Origin: Anaerolineales bacterium
GTDB lineage: Bacteria; Chloroflexota; Anaerolineae; Anaerolineales; RBG-16-64-43
Assembly: GCA_016928575.1 (NCBI GenBank)
Contig: JAFGKK010000046.1
Span: 1 to 35,910 of the forward strand
DNA length: 35,910 bases
Direction: 5' to 3'
Positions 20,367 through 29,659 of the stretch are shown in pieces. The position numbers were made by a program, and so were the translations under genes. The first letter of the stretch is position 1, and each line of letters begins with the position of its first letter. The notes beneath the pieces are model-generated. The model was not told the DNA's origin. It was given only the letters and a program-made list of their open reading frames with translations, and ran no database searches.

Positions 20367-21341
20367 GTGCGGAAAAAGCGGATGTCCCGTCGCCTGTCCA
20401 TTCCTTCCTGCGTGGTTTTCCTCTTCCTCGCCGGCACGGCTTGCGCTCCGGCCCCGGCCCCGCAGGCATTAACGACCGAAGCGCCCGCGGTTTCCCCCGT
20501 CCCCGCCCGCGCGCCGAGCGATACGCCGCCGCCCAGCCCAACCGTTCCCCCGTCCGCCACCCCTTCCCCGGCCTTTTCCCCTCCGGAGTATCCCCATATC
20601 ACCTTGCCCCGGCTCGGGCGCCTGCGGGAGATTTTTCAAACCGGTCAGGGTTCGGGCAAACGGAGTGCGGTTTTTTCCAAAGTCGGCGACAGCATCACCG
20701 ACAACAACCTTTTCCTGGCGCCCTTCGGAGCCGGGGACTACTCCCTTGGAGAGCACGGATACTTGCAGGAAGCGATCGGTTTCTTCTCGCGCGAGAACGC
20801 CCGCGATGGCAATTCTTTTGTCAACGATTCGCTCGCGGCGCGGGAAGGCTGGCGTGCGGAGCACGTGCTCTCCCCGGCCAAAGCCCAAGCCCCCTGCCCG
20901 GCCGGCGAATCCCCGCTGGCCTGCGAGTACCGGATCGTGCGGCCGGCGATCGCCGTGATCCTGCTGGGGACGAATGACGTGATGGCCGGAACGCCCGATT
21001 TTCCGGACAGCATGCAGACGGTCATCCTCCAATCGCTCGAGAGCGGCGTGATCCCGATCCTCACCACCCTTCCGGCCATGATCGGCAAGGACTCGGAACC
21101 CTTCAACGTCGCGATCCGCGAACTGGCCTTGGTTTGGGAAATCCCGCTGATCGACCTCTCCGCCGCGTTGGCGGCGCTTCCGAACCGGGGCCTGGGACCG
21201 GACGGGGTCCACCTCTCCTGGGTCGAACCGGCGGTTTTCGAACCGCCGTTCCTGAAGCACGGGATGACCGTGAGGAACCTGCTGACGCTGCAGGCGCTGG
21301 ACGCGGTGTGGCGGTCGTATCCGCTTGCCGCTTCAGGTTGA
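20367..21341 (+). CDS. SGNH/GDSL hydrolase lipoprotein
   Basis: 324 residues from GTG 20367 (GGAAG 7 nt upstream); ATG 20382 five codons later is also possible. A basic N-terminus and hydrophobic stretch end at Cys 26 in FLAGTAC, an imperfect lipobox. A Pro/Ser/Thr-rich tether runs to about 75. The SGNH blocks are then in order: VGDSIT with nucleophile Ser 109, LGTND with Asn 203, and DGVH with Asp 279 and His 282. The family comprises esterases and lipases, often acting on acetylated sugars or polymers; here it is probably anchored outside the membrane. No operon partner on the plus strand. Confidence 0.88.
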   Translation: MRKKRMSRRLSIPSCVVFLFLAGTACAPAPAPQALTTEAPAVSPVPARAPSDTPPPSPTVPPSATPSPAFSPPEYPHITLPRLGRLREIFQTGQGSGKRSAVFSKVGDSITDNNLFLAPFGAGDYSLGEHGYLQEAIGFFSRENARDGNSFVNDSLAAREGWRAEHVLSPAKAQAPCPAGESPLACEYRIVRPAIAVILLGTNDVMAGTPDFPDSMQTVILQSLESGVIPILTTLPAMIGKDSEPFNVAIRELALVWEIPLIDLSAALAALPNRGLGPDGVHLSWVEPAVFEPPFLKHGMTVRNLLTLQALDAVWRSYPLAASG

Positions 21342-21807
21342 CGGCTACATCCTCGAGCACTTCTTGAAGGAAGCCGCCGGTTTATTGGCTGAGGCTGTCA
21401 TCCCCCAGAGCTTTGTTCGGAGGCCGAGCGGTTTTCCCGGCGGATTTTTTCCGAACCCGGCGCTGAAAAAGCCCTGCAAGAGCATCAGCCAAGCCTCCCC
21501 CGCACGCCCGTCCCAGAAAAATCGCGGGTTAAGCACGGGGCAGCGCCGGGCCGGGGGTTCCAGGACGACGATCATGATGGTTCAGCGTCGCGGCCGGGTT
21601 TATTCGGGGGCTGACGAAAAAGGGGGACGACGGCGGTCTTCCCTGATACCGCGCTGAAGTTGGATCGTCATTCCCGCGCGGGTTTGGCGGGGATCCGAGG
21701 TTTCGCGGACCGGAGGCCCGCTTCAGCACGCGGGCATGGCGATCCTGCGTACGACGCGTGATCCTTTTGGGAAAGCCTCCCCTGTTTTTCGCCGGAGGAC
21801 AATCTCC
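21342..21807. other. Intergenic region between hydrolase and giant surface protein genes
   Basis: About 465 bp between convergent genes. A GTCATTCCCGCGCGGG segment at about 21668 resembles the start of short palindromic extragenic repeats, but its second arm is imperfect. I find no clear terminator for either neighbour and no coding frame I trust. Confidence 0.4.
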
Positions 21808-24800
21808 CTACCGGATTTCCACCAGCACCGCGCGCGCGACCTGCCGGTAGCGGTAGGTATCGTTTTGGGGGTTGTATCCGAGGCAGGTGACCAGCGTCAG
21901 CCACGGCTCCGCTTCGTGCCTCAGCGGGCCGTTGTCGTCCGGCAGGACGCTGGTGTTGGTGCGGACCTCGTAAATATACTGTTGTCCATCCATCCGCAGG
22001 ATGATCTTATCCCCCCAGCGCAACGCGGCCAGGTTTACAAACGGGCCGGGGAGGCCGTTCGGCAGATACACGTGGGCGGTAATGACCGAGTTGCCGGCGG
22101 TCCCGGGGAAGGCGGTCCCCTCCAGGTATCCGGCCTGATCCCAAAGCCAGGTCAGATCCCACCCGCCCTCCGTGATCGGCACGCCGACCACCGGCAGGTT
22201 TTGGTTCAACCGGGGGATTTGCAAACGCAGGCCGCCCAGCCGGGCATAGCGTTTCTCGGCCGGCTGTTCGGGCAGCGATGTCGTCCGCTTGGGCGCAAAG
22301 CCGGTGTCCGGCAGGGAGAGGGAAGTGACGGTCGCCGCGGCGGTCACCTGGTAAACGTCCGCCGGGTTGGCCGGATCGTACCGCCGCTCGTGCGAATACG
22401 GCTGGTTGAACTGCGAAAGGTAGGTGGCCGGCGGCGCGGGCACCTCGCCCGGCAGGCTGGTCCATTCGGCGCTGGCCGTATTCACCACCGCGGTCCCCGC
22501 CGGGATCGGGCCGAAGACCACCTGGAACTGGATCGTGGATTCCTGCCCCAATCCCAGTTCGGCCCATTCGGCATGCATGATCAGATTGCCGGTCGCCGGA
22601 TCGACGCCGGTGTCGTCGAGCAAGCTCGGCGCCGCGCCGCTGCCCGTCACGAAGCTCAAGGATCCCGGAACGTAGGTCAGGTCGTCCGGCAGGACGTCGT
22701 TGATCTCGGCGTCGTAGGCCGGCAGTTGGCTGACGCCGGAGTGGAAGATGCGGATCCGGTAGGTCAAAGTCATCCACGGCGAGGCCGAGGGGCTGTCGAC
22801 GGTTTTCTCCAGGCCCAGGTCCGGTTCGATGATCGTCACCGGCGCGGTCTGCCGGTGGATGGATCCGCTCGTCCACTCCATCAGCGCGTCGTTGGCCAGC
22901 CCGATTCCGCCGATGTTGCCGGTGATGTCGAGTACGACGGCGCGGTAGCGGATGGTGATGCTTTCGGGGGCGGAGGAGCTGGCGTTGGCGACCGTTCCGA
23001 AAGAGAAGACGGCCGTTCCGCCCGCGCCCGAGATCAGCGGATTGGCGCCGGCCCCGGTTCCGGCCGCGCAGTTGCCCGGCGTGTTGAGGGCGATCTGCGA
23101 ACTGGTCAGGTCCGCTCCCGCAGTGATGTCTTCGCAGTCGACGAAGGCCAGCCCCGAATCCAGCGTATCGGTCACCGTGTAGGTGTCGCTGGTCGCGGGC
23201 GGGATGGTCAGCACCAGCTGGTAAGTGAGGATCTCGCCGATGGTCACGTCCGGAAGCGCGGTGACCGGCGCCGGATGGCTGTCGCCGACCAGGGTTTTTG
23301 CCAGGTCGCGGTCCGTGTTCAAGGCCGTGCCGCTTTCGGCGGCGTAGTCGTTCAGCGCCCCGCCCGGCCCGTCGGCGCCGGTGCGTTCGTTGGAATCCAA
23401 CCCGGGCAGCGAACTCCACGCGGCGCGGGCGGTGTTGACGATCGGCGTGCCGAAGGGCGCCGTCACCGTCGCCTGGTAGCTGATCGTCAAACTGCCCGCC
23501 GTCGGGAATTCCGCCACCGAGAAGTAGACCATGTTTCCGATCGAGGTGTTCACCACGCCGGCCAGACCGCCCGAGGCGCTGAAGGAAACCGACGCCAAAT
23601 CGAGCGTCAGATCCGCCGGGAGGTTGTCGTAGATCTCCGCGTCGAAGGCCGTGGCCCCGCTGGCGGCGGCGTGGTCCACCACCACCATGAAGGTGACCAC
23701 CTGTCCGGGCGCGGGATTCGGATCGTCGACCGATTTGACGATTTGCAGGGTGGATTCGACGACGGCGACATCCTCGCTGTCGGTATAGGTGTCCACGCCG
23801 ACGAACAGGCTGGCGGTGTTGGTCAGCAGCGGCGGGGAAGCCTGGTTGCCCGCCTCGTTGAGCAGAACCGCCTGGTAACACAAGTAGAACGAGTTGTTTC
23901 CGGCGATGTTGTCGCCGTCGACCGCGATCGGGCCGAACTCGACGGTCAGGTCGGCGCCGCTGCCGCCGCCGGGCGGGTTCAAGGCCAGGGTCGGGACGGG
24001 CAGGGTTCCGTTGAAGTTCATTCCCAGACTGCCGCAGGACGCCGGCGGGTTGGTCTCGGTGACGACGGCCAAACTGCCGTCGACGTAAGCCAAGCCGTCC
24101 GGAACGAGATCCTGGACCTGCAAGGCCGGCGTGGTCCCCTCCGGCAGGGTGATCAGCAAACCGAAGGTGGCGATTTCGCCTATGGCGAGGCCGTTTCCGG
24201 CCGTGTGCGCGGCGGAGGTGGAGTCGAGCGATTTGGCGAAGACGGGCGCGGTGATGTCTAGCGTCGCGACGTCGATGCGGTCGTGGTCGTTGGGGTTCCC
24301 CGTCGGGCCGTTCGAGCCGTCGCGTTCCCCCGTCCCGCTCCCGGGCAAGCCCGGCGTCGCGTCGCCCGTGCCGTTCGGGCCGGGCAGGGAAGTCCACAGC
24401 GCCTCGGCGTCGTTGTCGATCGCCTGGCCGGGGGTGACGCCCGCGCCGACGGCCACCTGGTAGGTGATCACCACCTGGCCGCCGACCGGCAGGGAGGCCA
24501 CGGTGACGCGCACGGTGCCGCCGGCCGAGGCGTTGACCACGCCCGCCGCTCCGCCGCTGGCGGCGACGCTGACCGACGCCAGATTGAGGGTCAGATAAGC
24601 GGCCGGCGGCGTATCGGTGAACACCACGTCGAAGGCGGCGGCGGTGCTGTTCGTCGGCGCCGCCCCGTCGTTGACGATCGTCGCCGTGTAGGTGACGGTG
24701 TCGCCCGCGTCCACGGTTCCGGCGATCGCCGAATGGGTTTTCTCGAGCGTCAGGAAAGGCTCCACCACCCGAACCCGCACCGCGGAAGAGTCGCTGCCGA

Positions 24801-27800
24801 TCTGGACCGGAGTCACTCCGGCATAGGCGCGGACCCTGTTGTCGCGGTTGTCGCCGGAATCGTTTTGGTCGGCCGTCAGGTTGTGCACCAGGGCGTTGAA
24901 TTCGATCACCGCGTACTCGCCGTCGTCGTCCAGGTCGCCGTTGGTCAGGTCGCCGAGCTTGAAGTAGATATCGCTTCCGCTGCCGTAGGCGTCTGGATCG
25001 GCGGTGGTGCTGTTCGTACTGCCGATGTTCCAATCCTCCAGCAGGCAGGGCAGAACCGCCGGGTTGGTGGCGTCCGCCGCCGTGCCGACCAGGTTGCAAC
25101 CGCCCGGGACGGCCGGGACGCTGTCGCGCCCGGCGGAGACGATCCCGCCGTTGGAAACGAAACCGACTCGGGCCGTCCCGTCGTCGAGGAATACCAAGCC
25201 GGCGGGGAGCAGATCGCGGAATTGGAAATTCTCGCTCGTGCTTTCCGGGATGCGGGCCGCAATCCGGTAGCGGACGACCTCGCCGACCGCCACCTGCTCC
25301 ATGGTGGTGAAGCCGGTGTGCGCCTCCGACGTCCCGACGATGTATTTGGCCGGCGCGCCGCTGATCGTCACCGTCGCCTCGTCCCAGAGCGGCGAGGGCG
25401 TGGGCACGTGGTTGGGCCCGCCCTCTTCCCCGGCGTAACTCAGCAGGGTCTCGGTGTTGACGATGTTTCCGGGCGCCACGCCGGTGCGGATCTCCAGATC
25501 GTAGGTGATCAGGATCACGTTGTTGCCGAGGTTCGGATCGTACGCCGAGCAAACCCCCGCCTCGACCGGATCGATCAGTTCGATCCCGTCCTGGAAAAGC
25601 TCCTCGCCGCAGGGATCGTTGTCGCCGGCGGCGGTGCAGCCGCTGGTCAACCCCGCGTAGGAGATCGGCCCGCTGCCGTCTCCATAATAGGCCTGCAAGT
25701 TCAACCCGCCGGCGGGAATTTGATACTGGGCCGACTGCAGCACGTCGCGGATCCGAATGTCGAAGGCGCCGTTCAGGCTGGTTCCGGTGTTTTCGATCGT
25801 GATCGCAAAGGTGACCGTGTCGCCCGCGTCGACGTCGCGCACGTTGCTGTCGATCGGCCGCGCCGCCAATCCGTTGGAATGGATCGTTCCGCTCCAGCGC
25901 GGAGCGTTGGCCGGATCCAGGAAGGTCACACCGGCCGGTCCGCGGTTGGCCGGAGCGAAGACGTTGTTCGGATTGCTCGTCCAAATCACGCCCTTGGTCG
26001 AGGTCAGCGCCGGCTCGGTGAGGATCAATTGGACGATCGCGTCGGAGGGGACTTCCCCGGCGTTGGTCGATCCCTCGACCGCATATACCTGGTTGGTCAG
26101 GTACAAACCGTCGGCGAAGGGCTCGGTGGCGACCGTGACGGTGAAGAGCAGATCCACCGTGGTGGACTGGCTGGCCGGGTCGTCGAAATCGCCGTAGTGG
26201 AACTCGAGGCTGTTGTTGCCGGTGTCGGAGGCTAGGGCCGGAACGATCTCCGAATAATCGTAGAAGGTGTCCGCCGGCCCGAAGTTGGCCGCCCCCGGAG
26301 CGGGGATGACCGCCGGCTGGCCGCTTTGTCCGACCGCGTTGAAGGCCCACCCCGGCCCGTTGCCGTGGGCGGGGTAATCGTTTGCGTCCGGGTCGGCGAC
26401 AAAGAAGATCGGCAGCGGCAGGTAATCGGTGAACTCCAGGTTTTCCTCGTCGCTGGTCGGCATCACGTAGGTGATCCGGTAGGTCACCTCGTCGCCCGGT
26501 TTGATCCGGACCGGGGTGGGGAAAGACGTGCTGCCGTTGACGGCGTAAATGCTTTTGGTCAGCGCGCCGGAGCCGATGGCAAACTCCTCCTCGGCGTCGT
26601 CGGTGACGTCCGGTCCCGGCGTGAAGTCGTAGGTGTCGAGCAGCCGCCCCGTCAGAAGCGCGGTATCCAGGAACGTGTCCCCCTGATCCACGCTCCAATC
26701 CCCGGAGGGGTAGGTGTCGGTGAAATCCTCCTGGACGACGGCGCGGAAGCGCACGACCGCCGCGGTTGCGCCGTCGTTGAAGGCGCCGCAATCCGGATCC
26801 GTTGTGCCGCCGGCCGGATCCACGCAGCCGCCGATCAGCCGCACGTCCGATACCCGGTCTTCCAGCTCATCCGAGATCCGGAAGGTCAGGTGGGTCGTGC
26901 CGTCGGTGGCGGGATTTTCCGCCCCGGGCGGCCCGTCGGCGAGGTCGATTCTGGATTCGTCGACGGTGTAATTTGTCGCGTCGAAATTCACGGCCGGCGC
27001 GAGTTCATATCCGTTCCCCGAAACTTCCAAAGTCGGAACGAACGACGGATCGAAGCGCTGACCGTCGGAGAGAACGTCGAAAACGACGACCTGGTCGAAG
27101 GCGAAGAAATCCGAAACTTGGATCTCCAGCGCATACTCCAGCACGTCGTCGGGGGAGTAGCCGCCTCCGGTGAGGTTGGCGACGCCCTTTTGAACGGCCA
27201 GCGACCGGTCGGTGAGCGTGTGCTCGCATCCACCCGGATCGACCGTCACGGTTTGCGGGCCGTCGCGCGCATCGACCGGAGTCCAATCCCCCTCCGCCAG
27301 CGCCTCGTTGCAGGAAGAAACCGCCGCTCCGGTGAGCGGGTTGATCACCCGGATCCCGTCGGCGTTTTCGAGCGGAACAAAGAAGGAGAACGCCGCCTCG
27401 GCGTCCGCCGCACCCGCGCCGCCGGTGATCGCGCCCCAATGGACGATCAGGTCGTTGTCCGGCGGATTTTGCGCCGCGCCGGCGGCGGGCTCATCCTCCA
27501 GCCCATACCCCGGCGTCGCCGACACCAAGCCGGCGTATTGCAGGTTGTTGGGGAGAAGATCGTAGACACGCAGGTCGGTGATCGTCTGTCCCGGAGCGAT
27601 GTCCGCCGTCAGCGTGTACTGGCGGGCGTAGTTCGGGCCGGTTGCGGTCTCGTCCGAGACGTCCCCCGGTCCGGCGTAGGCCTTGGCCAGCGTCATCAGG
27701 GTCGGGGTGACGGAGTCGGAAACCCACCCGCTGAGGGTGATGTCGGGCGGATCGCCGCAGCACCAGTCGTCGAGCGGGGTGATGCCGAACTCGTAGCCGC

Positions 27801-28470
27801 CGCGCGCCCGGACCGTGAGCGCGTATCCGAGGTCGGCCAGGTTGCTCATGTTAACCGTCATCCCGACCGTGGCGGGCGGCTGTCCGTAGGTGAAACTGCC
27901 GAACGGCAGGCGGATGACCACCAGCTCGTCCCCCGGCGTGCCAGTGACGTTGATGAAGTTACCGCTCGCGTCGCGGAGGATCGGGTGATTCGCGTTGCCC
28001 CCGGCATTGAACGTGACCCGGTAGAAATCCTGCGCCGGAACGGGGCTTCCCATGTAGCTGGCGGTGATGGTCGTCGTCCCCAGCCCGTCGTCGGTCGCCG
28101 CGCCGGCCCCGTCCGCGCCGGTGCGCGGGATGGTCATTTCCACGAACGGGCCATAGCCGGTTTCGAATTCGGGATCGTTGTTGTCGAAGGTGACGGTGAA
28201 TGAGACGTCGGATCCGATCATCGCCTCGGGCGGAACGCCCAGGGTGACGGTCGGCGGATCGATAGCGCCCGGCGTGAGGCGCGGGGCCGCGAACGCGGGG
28301 AAGGACGACGACGCCGGGCAGGCGATTCCGGCGGCGAGCAGGAGGGAATAGAGGATAATCCGGCCGGGAATCCTTCCCGACCGCGTCAACCGGGATCGGC
28401 CGATCGGGCCGAACGCAGGCAGAGTTGTCCCTTCGAAGCGCGTCGCAGTCTCGGAATCCATTCCCGGCAT
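21808..28470 (-). CDS. Giant secreted DUF11-type repeat protein with LPDTG motif and C-terminal sortase domain
   Basis: About 2,220 residues from ATG 28470 (AGGA ~12 nt upstream). A signal peptide (IILYSLLLAAGIACPASSSF then PAFAAPR) directs export. About ten DUF11-like beta units follow, each opening with a K-containing strand such as LEKTHS, VKSVDD or AKTLVG, near residues 260, 423, 636, 826, 1041, 1241, 1410, 1575, 1721 and 1885. The last eight alternate between two kinds. LPDTG stands at 2053. The final ~135 residues form a sortase domain: LQIPRLNQNLPVVGVP, His 2133 in TAHVY, Cys 2196 in LVTCLGY, and an Arg cluster at 2207-2213. There is no C-terminal membrane span. DUF11 proteins are surface or adhesin-like; a fused sortase suggests it links itself, or a partner, to something. 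The coding strand is intact over 6.6 kb. Confidence 0.93.
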   Translation of the reverse strand: MPGMDSETATRFEGTTLPAFGPIGRSRLTRSGRIPGRIILYSLLLAAGIACPASSSFPAFAAPRLTPGAIDPPTVTLGVPPEAMIGSDVSFTVTFDNNDPEFETGYGPFVEMTIPRTGADGAGAATDDGLGTTTITASYMGSPVPAQDFYRVTFNAGGNANHPILRDASGNFINVTGTPGDELVVIRLPFGSFTYGQPPATVGMTVNMSNLADLGYALTVRARGGYEFGITPLDDWCCGDPPDITLSGWVSDSVTPTLMTLAKAYAGPGDVSDETATGPNYARQYTLTADIAPGQTITDLRVYDLLPNNLQYAGLVSATPGYGLEDEPAAGAAQNPPDNDLIVHWGAITGGAGAADAEAAFSFFVPLENADGIRVINPLTGAAVSSCNEALAEGDWTPVDARDGPQTVTVDPGGCEHTLTDRSLAVQKGVANLTGGGYSPDDVLEYALEIQVSDFFAFDQVVVFDVLSDGQRFDPSFVPTLEVSGNGYELAPAVNFDATNYTVDESRIDLADGPPGAENPATDGTTHLTFRISDELEDRVSDVRLIGGCVDPAGGTTDPDCGAFNDGATAAVVRFRAVVQEDFTDTYPSGDWSVDQGDTFLDTALLTGRLLDTYDFTPGPDVTDDAEEEFAIGSGALTKSIYAVNGSTSFPTPVRIKPGDEVTYRITYVMPTSDEENLEFTDYLPLPIFFVADPDANDYPAHGNGPGWAFNAVGQSGQPAVIPAPGAANFGPADTFYDYSEIVPALASDTGNNSLEFHYGDFDDPASQSTTVDLLFTVTVATEPFADGLYLTNQVYAVEGSTNAGEVPSDAIVQLILTEPALTSTKGVIWTSNPNNVFAPANRGPAGVTFLDPANAPRWSGTIHSNGLAARPIDSNVRDVDAGDTVTFAITIENTGTSLNGAFDIRIRDVLQSAQYQIPAGGLNLQAYYGDGSGPISYAGLTSGCTAAGDNDPCGEELFQDGIELIDPVEAGVCSAYDPNLGNNVILITYDLEIRTGVAPGNIVNTETLLSYAGEEGGPNHVPTPSPLWDEATVTISGAPAKYIVGTSEAHTGFTTMEQVAVGEVVRYRIAARIPESTSENFQFRDLLPAGLVFLDDGTARVGFVSNGGIVSAGRDSVPAVPGGCNLVGTAADATNPAVLPCLLEDWNIGSTNSTTADPDAYGSGSDIYFKLGDLTNGDLDDDGEYAVIEFNALVHNLTADQNDSGDNRDNRVRAYAGVTPVQIGSDSSAVRVRVVEPFLTLEKTHSAIAGTVDAGDTVTYTATIVNDGAAPTNSTAAAFDVVFTDTPPAAYLTLNLASVSVAASGGAAGVVNASAGGTVRVTVASLPVGGQVVITYQVAVGAGVTPGQAIDNDAEALWTSLPGPNGTGDATPGLPGSGTGERDGSNGPTGNPNDHDRIDVATLDITAPVFAKSLDSTSAAHTAGNGLAIGEIATFGLLITLPEGTTPALQVQDLVPDGLAYVDGSLAVVTETNPPASCGSLGMNFNGTLPVPTLALNPPGGGSGADLTVEFGPIAVDGDNIAGNNSFYLCYQAVLLNEAGNQASPPLLTNTASLFVGVDTYTDSEDVAVVESTLQIVKSVDDPNPAPGQVVTFMVVVDHAAASGATAFDAEIYDNLPADLTLDLASVSFSASGGLAGVVNTSIGNMVYFSVAEFPTAGSLTISYQATVTAPFGTPIVNTARAAWSSLPGLDSNERTGADGPGGALNDYAAESGTALNTDRDLAKTLVGDSHPAPVTALPDVTIGEILTYQLVLTIPPATSDTYTVTDTLDSGLAFVDCEDITAGADLTSSQIALNTPGNCAAGTGAGANPLISGAGGTAVFSFGTVANASSSAPESITIRYRAVVLDITGNIGGIGLANDALMEWTSGSIHRQTAPVTIIEPDLGLEKTVDSPSASPWMTLTYRIRIFHSGVSQLPAYDAEINDVLPDDLTYVPGSLSFVTGSGAAPSLLDDTGVDPATGNLIMHAEWAELGLGQESTIQFQVVFGPIPAGTAVVNTASAEWTSLPGEVPAPPATYLSQFNQPYSHERRYDPANPADVYQVTAAATVTSLSLPDTGFAPKRTTSLPEQPAEKRYARLGGLRLQIPRLNQNLPVVGVPITEGGWDLTWLWDQAGYLEGTAFPGTAGNSVITAHVYLPNGLPGPFVNLAALRWGDKIILRMDGQQYIYEVRTNTSVLPDDNGPLRHEAEPWLTLVTCLGYNPQNDTYRYRQVARAVLVEIR

Positions 28471-28510
28471 CAGCAAAAAGGATCCTTAAGGGGATTAATT
28501 ACTGGCATGA

Positions 28511-28588: not shown

Positions 28589-29659
28589 ATGGACCGGATG
28601 AGGCTGATCCCCATCGTTCTGATCCTGTTGCTGGCCTGCAATTTTGGTGCTCCGCCGGGATCGGCCGATACATCAGCCGATCAACCCGAGGAAGGGGAAT
28701 CCATTCCGCCCGCGCAAGGGGATTCCCCGCAGAACACCCCCCGGCCGGAAGAAGACGAGGCCGCGCCGGACGGCGGGCCCTCGGCCGTCGACGTCTCTCC
28801 CCCCTCCGAAACCGTCAAGCTGATCTTCATTCACCACTCCTGCGGCGAAAACTGGCTCGCGGATTGGAGCGGCGGCCTGGGCTTGACGCTGACGGGCAAC
28901 AATTATTTCGTCAGCGATACCAACTACGGCTGGGGTCCGGAGGATCCGTCCCTCGGCGGGGCGATCGGGGATTTCACCGACATCGGCCACTGGTGGAACT
29001 GGTTCCTCGGCCCCTCCAGCGAAGAGATCCTGCGGGCGCTGTTTGACGAAAGCGGACAGCATTCCGAGTACACCCGGATGGAGTCCGATCCGGGCGGCGA
29101 AAACGAGATCGTGCTCTTCAAATCCTGCTTCCCCAATTCTGCGCTGGAGGGCGATCCCGTCGATCCGCCGGCCGAAGGCGCCAGCCCCCTGCAAGGGATG
29201 GACTGCGGGTCCGATATGCACACCGTGGCCAACGCCAAGCGGATCTACCTCGACTTGCTGGACTACTTCGCCGCCCACACGGATAAGCTGTTCATCGCCG
29301 TCACCGCCCCGCCCCTGCTCGACACCTCCCCCGAACAGGCCGCCAACGCGCGGGCCTTCAACCGCTGGCTGGTGGAGGAGTGGCTGTCGGAGTATTCGCA
29401 TGCCAACGTCGCCGTGTTCGATTTTTACAACGTGCTCACGTCGAACGGCGGAAATCCGAACACCAACGACCTGGATTCCAAATACGGCAACCACCACCGG
29501 ATCCGCAACGGGCAGGTCGACTATGTCACCGGACAGGGGGGCGACGGCTCCGCCTACGCGGAAGAGGGCGACAGCCATCCCACCCCCGCCGGCAACCTTA
29601 AAGCCACCGCCGAGTTCGTGCCGCTGTTGAACCACTACTACCACCTTTGGCGCGGCTGA
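28589..29659 (+). CDS. Conserved lipoprotein, SGNH-hydrolase-like
   Basis: 356 residues; GGAGG lies 4 nt before ATG 28589. The signal MDRMRLIPIVLILLLAC ends in a lipobox with Cys 17, then an acidic, Pro-rich tether runs to about 70. The globular domain opens with KLIFIHHSCGENWLADW, which fits an SGNH-type first block (the nucleophile may be that Ser). Later come NNYFVSDTNYGWGPED, ENEIVLFKSCFPNSALEG and, near the end, DSHPTPAGNLKATAEF with the D-x-H pair of SGNH enzymes. The protein looks like a conserved family of uncharacterised secreted proteins; the enzyme assignment is inference. It heads a probable operon with the alpha/beta-hydrolase lipoprotein 34 nt downstream. Confidence 0.85.
   Translation: MDRMRLIPIVLILLLACNFGAPPGSADTSADQPEEGESIPPAQGDSPQNTPRPEEDEAAPDGGPSAVDVSPPSETVKLIFIHHSCGENWLADWSGGLGLTLTGNNYFVSDTNYGWGPEDPSLGGAIGDFTDIGHWWNWFLGPSSEEILRALFDESGQHSEYTRMESDPGGENEIVLFKSCFPNSALEGDPVDPPAEGASPLQGMDCGSDMHTVANAKRIYLDLLDYFAAHTDKLFIAVTAPPLLDTSPEQAANARAFNRWLVEEWLSEYSHANVAVFDFYNVLTSNGGNPNTNDLDSKYGNHHRIRNGQVDYVTGQGGDGSAYAEEGDSHPTPAGNLKATAEFVPLLNHYYHLWRG

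Follow-up and report, generated by a model that had tools for sequence, protein, structure and literature searches.

An LPxTG motif and a C-terminal sortase domain in one polypeptide: a giant DUF11-repeat protein of Anaerolineales and its relatives

Sortase pathways are understood as systems in which one enzyme serves many tagged clients, and to our knowledge the attachment of proteins to the envelope of Chloroflexota has been little studied. Our search of the open-access literature found no report on natural sortase-substrate fusions or on sortases from Chloroflexi/Chloroflexota. Sortases, LPXTG signals, DUF11 adhesins, and engineered self-cleaving sortase fusions are already known. BISOP, for example, is an engineered self-cleaving fusion with the sortase at its N terminus (PMC2901362), and sortase-tag expressed protein ligation, as presented in a later article that cites it, also uses an engineered sortase fusion (Warden-Rothman 2013, cited in PMC11561820). 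Among surface proteins, a Lys/Asp/Asn triad forming an intramolecular isopeptide bond has been described for DUF11 (CLIPPER) domains (PMC12617251), and the grappling-hook protein GhlA of Litorilinea comes, like the protein studied here, from Chloroflexota (PMC13319060).

We analyzed a 35,910-nucleotide stretch (here called the window) of an Anaerolineales genome (contig JAFGKK010000046.1), in which a gene on the minus strand spans positions 21808 to 28470 if read from an ATG (2,220 codons) or extends to 28476 if read from a TTG (2,222 codons). Residues are numbered from the TTG, the first possible start, which adds 2 to the ATG numbering; the length of 2,220 residues and the positions His2133 and Cys2196 given in the first-pass annotation are exact when counted from the ATG at 28470. 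The features of the gene are collected in Table 1.

Table 1. Features of the fusion gene in the window (residues numbered from the TTG start unless stated otherwise).
Feature	Position	Strand	Basis or remark
Fusion gene: secreted DUF11/isopeptide shaft, LPDTGFAP, linker, and C-terminal sortase	21808..28476	-	ORF, profile matches
N-terminal signal sequence	28285..28371	-	Hydropathy: core residues 36-54; AFA-A type cleavage site near 64, read off the sequence
Shaft, DUF11/isopeptide-forming repeats, residues about 65-2049	22330..28284	-	PF01345, TIGR04226, TIGR01451
Last shaft domain, residues 1885-2049	22330..22824	-	Lys1891/Asp1927/Asn1999 at DUF11 isopeptide triad places
LPDTGFAP, sortase recognition motif and conserved downstream residues, residues 2055-2062	22291..22314	-	
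Linker from motif to sortase, residues 2063-2081 (about 19)	22234..22290	-	Family consensus GRVTxLPxQPAxxxY; low confidence/flexible in model
Sortase domain, residues 2085-2219, end of protein	21820..22224	-	Pfam Sortase, structure matches
Catalytic His2135 (2133 from ATG)	22072..22074	-	111/111 invariant
Catalytic Cys2198 (2196 from ATG)	21883..21885	-	111/111 invariant
Catalytic Arg2211 (2209 from ATG)	21844..21846	-	109/111

The C-terminal domain is a sortase by profile (Pfam PF04203, residues 2085 to 2219, E = 9e-20, 71.1 bits against a cutoff of 26.6; TIGR01076, 45.4 bits against 39.35) that retains the catalytic His, Cys, and Arg, and it follows LPDTG and a linker as the first-pass annotation had described. 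Across 111 compact fusions of this kind, His and Cys are retained in all 111 and Arg in 109, and judged by its sequence the fused sortase has an intact active site. Its class is less clear. In sequence, most of its nearest neighbors among solved sortases are class C pilin polymerases, but the class C profile NF033745 gave 42.9 bits against a cutoff of 160, and the profiles for classes D, E, and F (NF033746, NF033747, and NF033748) gave 33.7, 38.9, and 34.6 bits against cutoffs of 160 to 166. In comparisons of the predicted structure with solved sortases, classes A, C, and E were nearly tied, with Z scores of about 14 to 16.

The shaft matches the DUF11 profile (PF01345) at 104.9 bits (cutoff, 24.6) and the isopeptide-forming fimbrial backbone domain TIGR04226 (RrgB_K2N) at 129.9 bits (cutoff, 30); TIGR04226 covers three stretches and TIGR01451 (DUF11) four. 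The last shaft domain also matches GhpA, with 64 bits for the best stretch, and in a sequence alignment Lys1891, Asp1927, and Asn1999 fall at the places of the DUF11 isopeptide triad. The signal sequence is the only segment of the whole protein above the hydropathy threshold, and the protein therefore lacks a C-terminal membrane span, as had been noted from the sequence at first reading. LPDTG, at residues 2055 to 2059, is the sole LPxT[GANS] match in the protein.

No further sortase or pilin was found among the genes beside the fusion, most of which have no family match. Just downstream, on the opposite strand, lies a GDSL-like lipase gene (20367 to 21341, plus strand; weak, above the Pfam cutoff), and a divergent neighbor (28589 to 29659, plus strand) encodes a protein of 356 residues that carries a lipoprotein-like signal and matches no Pfam or NCBIfam family. 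In other frames, two long open reading frames run across the fusion gene (21736 to 24261, plus strand, 841 codons; 22007 to 26791, minus strand, 1,594 codons) and are probably a by-product of the high G+C content.

To survey the motif, we searched 101 genomes of the order at the DNA level for LPxTGF[ASTP]P and added other fetched relatives. The motif preceded a C-terminal sortase in 85 nonredundant open reading frames, at a distance of 23 to 32 residues in 82 of them and 45 to 50 residues in three; the 13 further matches lay in frames without a sortase and looked like chance occurrences. No free LPxTGFxP protein without a sortase was seen in the 101 genomes. The window's own genome yielded no second LPxTGFxP motif and no other LPxTG protein with a transmembrane segment (TM), and the LPXTG_anchor search of that genome returned only membrane segments, all without LPxTG. 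A scan of the phylum gave many LPxTGFAP matches in the order and few outside it, and a scan of viral contigs found nothing.

In the alignment, L, P, T, and G of the motif are fixed at 4.2 to 4.3 bits, a value that is partly circular because the rows were picked with the pattern. This circularity spares two results, namely that position x is free (1.2 bits) and that the residues upstream are unconserved. The motif has a sharp boundary. As a noncircular test, we used an alignment of the sortase alone, without the motif (A3), to search 396 genomes. The new compact members recovered in this way kept TGF in 25/25 cases, Pro in 24/25, and a preceding Leu, Ile, or Val in 24/25, so that motif and catalytic triad are co-conserved in the survey of relatives that the first-pass annotation had proposed. 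Departures among the relatives include ILDTGFAP in L262 (Pro lost) and APATGFAP in L259 (Leu lost). In total, about 110 relatives carry the motif, with x free, before an intact sortase. A chance motif was rejected on the basis of the near-constant spacing before the sortase and the retention of TGF in all 25 relatives found with the motif-free query. A canonical C-terminal LPxTG anchor was likewise rejected, since no membrane span follows the motif; in place of a TIGR01167-type sorting signal, LPDTG is followed by a linker and the sortase, with no hydrophobic span.

The relatives show three arrangements within the class Anaerolineae. In the split form, the gene for a protein with a standard C-terminal sorting signal immediately precedes that for a sortase (L173, L189, L273, L278, and L280), with tails of the types LPETG-TM-RGRR, LPTTG-TM-KRW, LPETG-TM-NRKRK, LPETG-TM-KIKRG, and IPESG-TM-RRGR; the substrate at L173 carries a DUF11 domain, and the sortase at L189 falls on a branch farther away in the sortase-domain tree. 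In the membrane-hairpin form, one chain of about 1,000 to 4,463 residues contains, in order, a shaft, LPxTG, a TM, a short loop, a second TM, a Pro-rich linker, and the sortase; such open frames occur in several families (L040, L041, L145 to L149, L177, L194, L217 to L223, and L226). The window protein represents the compact form, in which the two helices are absent. In the sortase-domain tree, the compact fusions form one clade (support, 100/99), and six hairpin proteins with LPGTG are its sister group with weak support (89/69). Other hairpin proteins lie among stand-alone sortases elsewhere in the tree, and fusion may therefore have happened more than once. The compact cassette occurs behind unrelated shafts, including DUF11 repeats and, in L037, DUF285/fn3 repeats, and a single genome can contain several copies.

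From the coexistence of these forms, we infer an evolutionary order from split through hairpin to compact. Since relatives keep LPxTG with its membrane span either in a separate gene or within the fusion, the window motif is probably what remains of an ordinary LPxTG sorting signal after loss of the span. The view at first reading that the motif is not a normal anchoring signal thus holds insofar as no TM follows it and is amended as to its probable origin, and the expectation of related fusions in Chloroflexota was matched by both compact and hairpin forms.

Other LP-type motifs were observed near sortases in these genomes. The hairpin fusions L145 to L149 and L194 have LPGTG about 150 to 210 residues before the sortase and also conserve LP[DES]Y[PTA][VI]PTP closer to it, at a distance of a few tens of residues. 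At L181 (8328 to 11171), an LPVTG-TM-RRKE protein and a membrane sortase are encoded about 1 kb apart with another open reading frame between them. The window's own genome also has a separate membrane sortase (L001, on contig C129), of a kind present in most sampled genomes of the order, and the stand-alone membrane sortases L001, L047, and L151 to L170 share a nearly invariant VVLPSGHTPP between the membrane helix and the catalytic domain, a second setting for an LP-type motif before a sortase. In related stand-alone sortases (L046 and L050), the corresponding linker contains two LPGSSxPP motifs, and another group of stand-alone membrane sortases (L273 to L275, L277, and L278) has LGF[AS]LPxxSVNS[VI]T in common, immediately in front of the catalytic domain.

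In two AF2 models of the tail, built from a shallow alignment of only 11 sequences, the motif segment is flexible and not part of a strand; in the second model its pLDDT is about 50, barely above that of its flanks. Alignment of the model with class C structures begins near tail residues 207 to 209, and the motif occupies residues 193 to 200; equivalence of the motif to the class C lid was downgraded because the motif is N terminal to the aligned part. The linker would in principle be long enough for the motif to reach the active site. The first-pass annotation had named two observations that would speak against its reading, and neither was encountered: burial of the motif in a beta-strand was not seen in these two shallow-alignment models, and the sole member of the compact clade that combines an intact active site with a lost motif, L014, is also the only one that is apparently no longer fused to a shaft.

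Because the motif is co-conserved with the sortase and because split and half-fused forms exist, LPDTG is most likely the substrate of the fused enzyme; separate enzyme-substrate pairs are not in themselves proof that the fused enzyme has the same substrate. We consider it probable that the window protein unites a sorting substrate with its sortase in one polypeptide, which cuts its own motif and transfers the shaft to an amine acceptor. The protein would be exported by its signal peptide, and outside the membrane the C-terminal sortase would bind the LPDTG just before it, in its own chain or in that of a neighbor. Cys2198, assisted by His2135 and Arg2211, would cut between Thr and Gly and form a thioester with the shaft. 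An amine of the cell envelope or of a different surface protein could then accept the new C-terminal Thr of the shaft, with the sortase domain, now starting with GFAP, as the leaving group. The cut, its action in cis or trans, and the acceptor are what we infer from these comparisons. Since it has no membrane anchor, the compact fusion would install chiefly its own shaft; the enzyme of the two-helix form would remain membrane-bound. More tentatively, the protein might be a single-turnover surface ligase in which the enzyme is its own leaving group, and the LPxTGFAP-sortase cassette a portable attachment module used by many giant adhesins of one order.

One particular answer to the acceptor question would be self-polymerization as in pilins, with a lysine of another copy as the acceptor and with pilin and polymerase in one gene. 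The kinship to class C pilin polymerases among the nearest solved sortases and the fimbrial-backbone matches of the shaft point in this direction, but the class C score lies far under its cutoff, classes A, C, and E are structurally nearly tied, and a single molecule of more than 2,000 residues is already long-reaching without polymerizing, all of which makes this reading rather unlikely. Class C sortases have a regulatory lid before the core, and the order's stand-alone membrane sortases carry their conserved LPSGHTPP-like motif before the catalytic domain, so LPxTG could instead be a pseudosubstrate that closes the fused sortase until a trigger arrives and is not normally cut. Such a lid would explain neither the free x beside a fixed T-G nor the full sorting signals, with TM and basic tail, on separate neighbor genes, and the class C-aligned part of the model starts only after the motif; we regard it as improbable.

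Even less probable is that the separate membrane sortase cuts LPDTG and that the fused domain acts on some other target. An enzyme of that kind is indeed present in this genome and in most of those sampled from the order, but the near-constant distance between motif and fused domain in more than 80 proteins argues against it, as does the lack of the TM and basic tail that hold membrane-sortase substrates; the fused enzymes would also have to act on different substrates, and the searches turned up no free LPxTGFxP protein. Finally, the sortase might hydrolyze the Thr-Gly bond without transpeptidation, so that the shaft or the enzyme is shed. Sortases in cells are chiefly transpeptidases, and the two-helix membrane-hairpin forms fit attachment better than shedding. 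Self-release therefore seems quite unlikely to us, even though engineered sortase-LPETG fusions do cleave themselves (PMC2901362) and the compact form has no membrane anchor.

If the fused enzyme does act on its own motif, surface fibers of Chloroflexota could be anchored without a separate enzyme, and the cassettes would be ready-made modules for self-ligating protein engineering. The family represents natural one-to-one fusions of client and enzyme, and the split and half-way forms suggest a protein that may attach itself to its cell or its neighbors with no separate enzyme. As split, hairpin, and compact forms all occur in one class, the origin of such a self-attaching protein is therefore traceable. 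For annotation, LPxTG searches limited to the last 50 residues (as in PMC12617251) miss motifs of the kind found in the window.

Overall, the window protein shares its long DUF11 shaft with the DUF11 (CLIPPER) fibrillar adhesins (PMC12617251), GhpA of Aureispira, and GhlA of Litorilinea (PMC13319060), and the GhlA paper makes no mention of a sortase or LPXTG. It shares the Pfam family and fold of class C, D, E, and F sortases (Z of about 14 to 16), but its sortase scores far below the NCBIfam class cutoffs and has no membrane anchor of its own. Like the engineered fusions (BISOP and Warden-Rothman 2013), whose principle, as outlined in the articles cited above, is self-cleavage, it joins LPxTG and a sortase in one chain; those fusions are man-made, whereas the window family is natural and has the sortase at the C terminus. 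With Gram-positive pilus operons and pairs of sortase and LPXTG-substrate genes it has in common the LPxTG motif, a sortase fold with His, Cys, and Arg, and a substrate that consists mostly of isopeptide-type Ig-like repeats. In contrast to those systems, its motif is followed by FAP rather than by a membrane span and basic tail, its sortase is not itself anchored in the membrane, and enzyme and substrate are one polypeptide.
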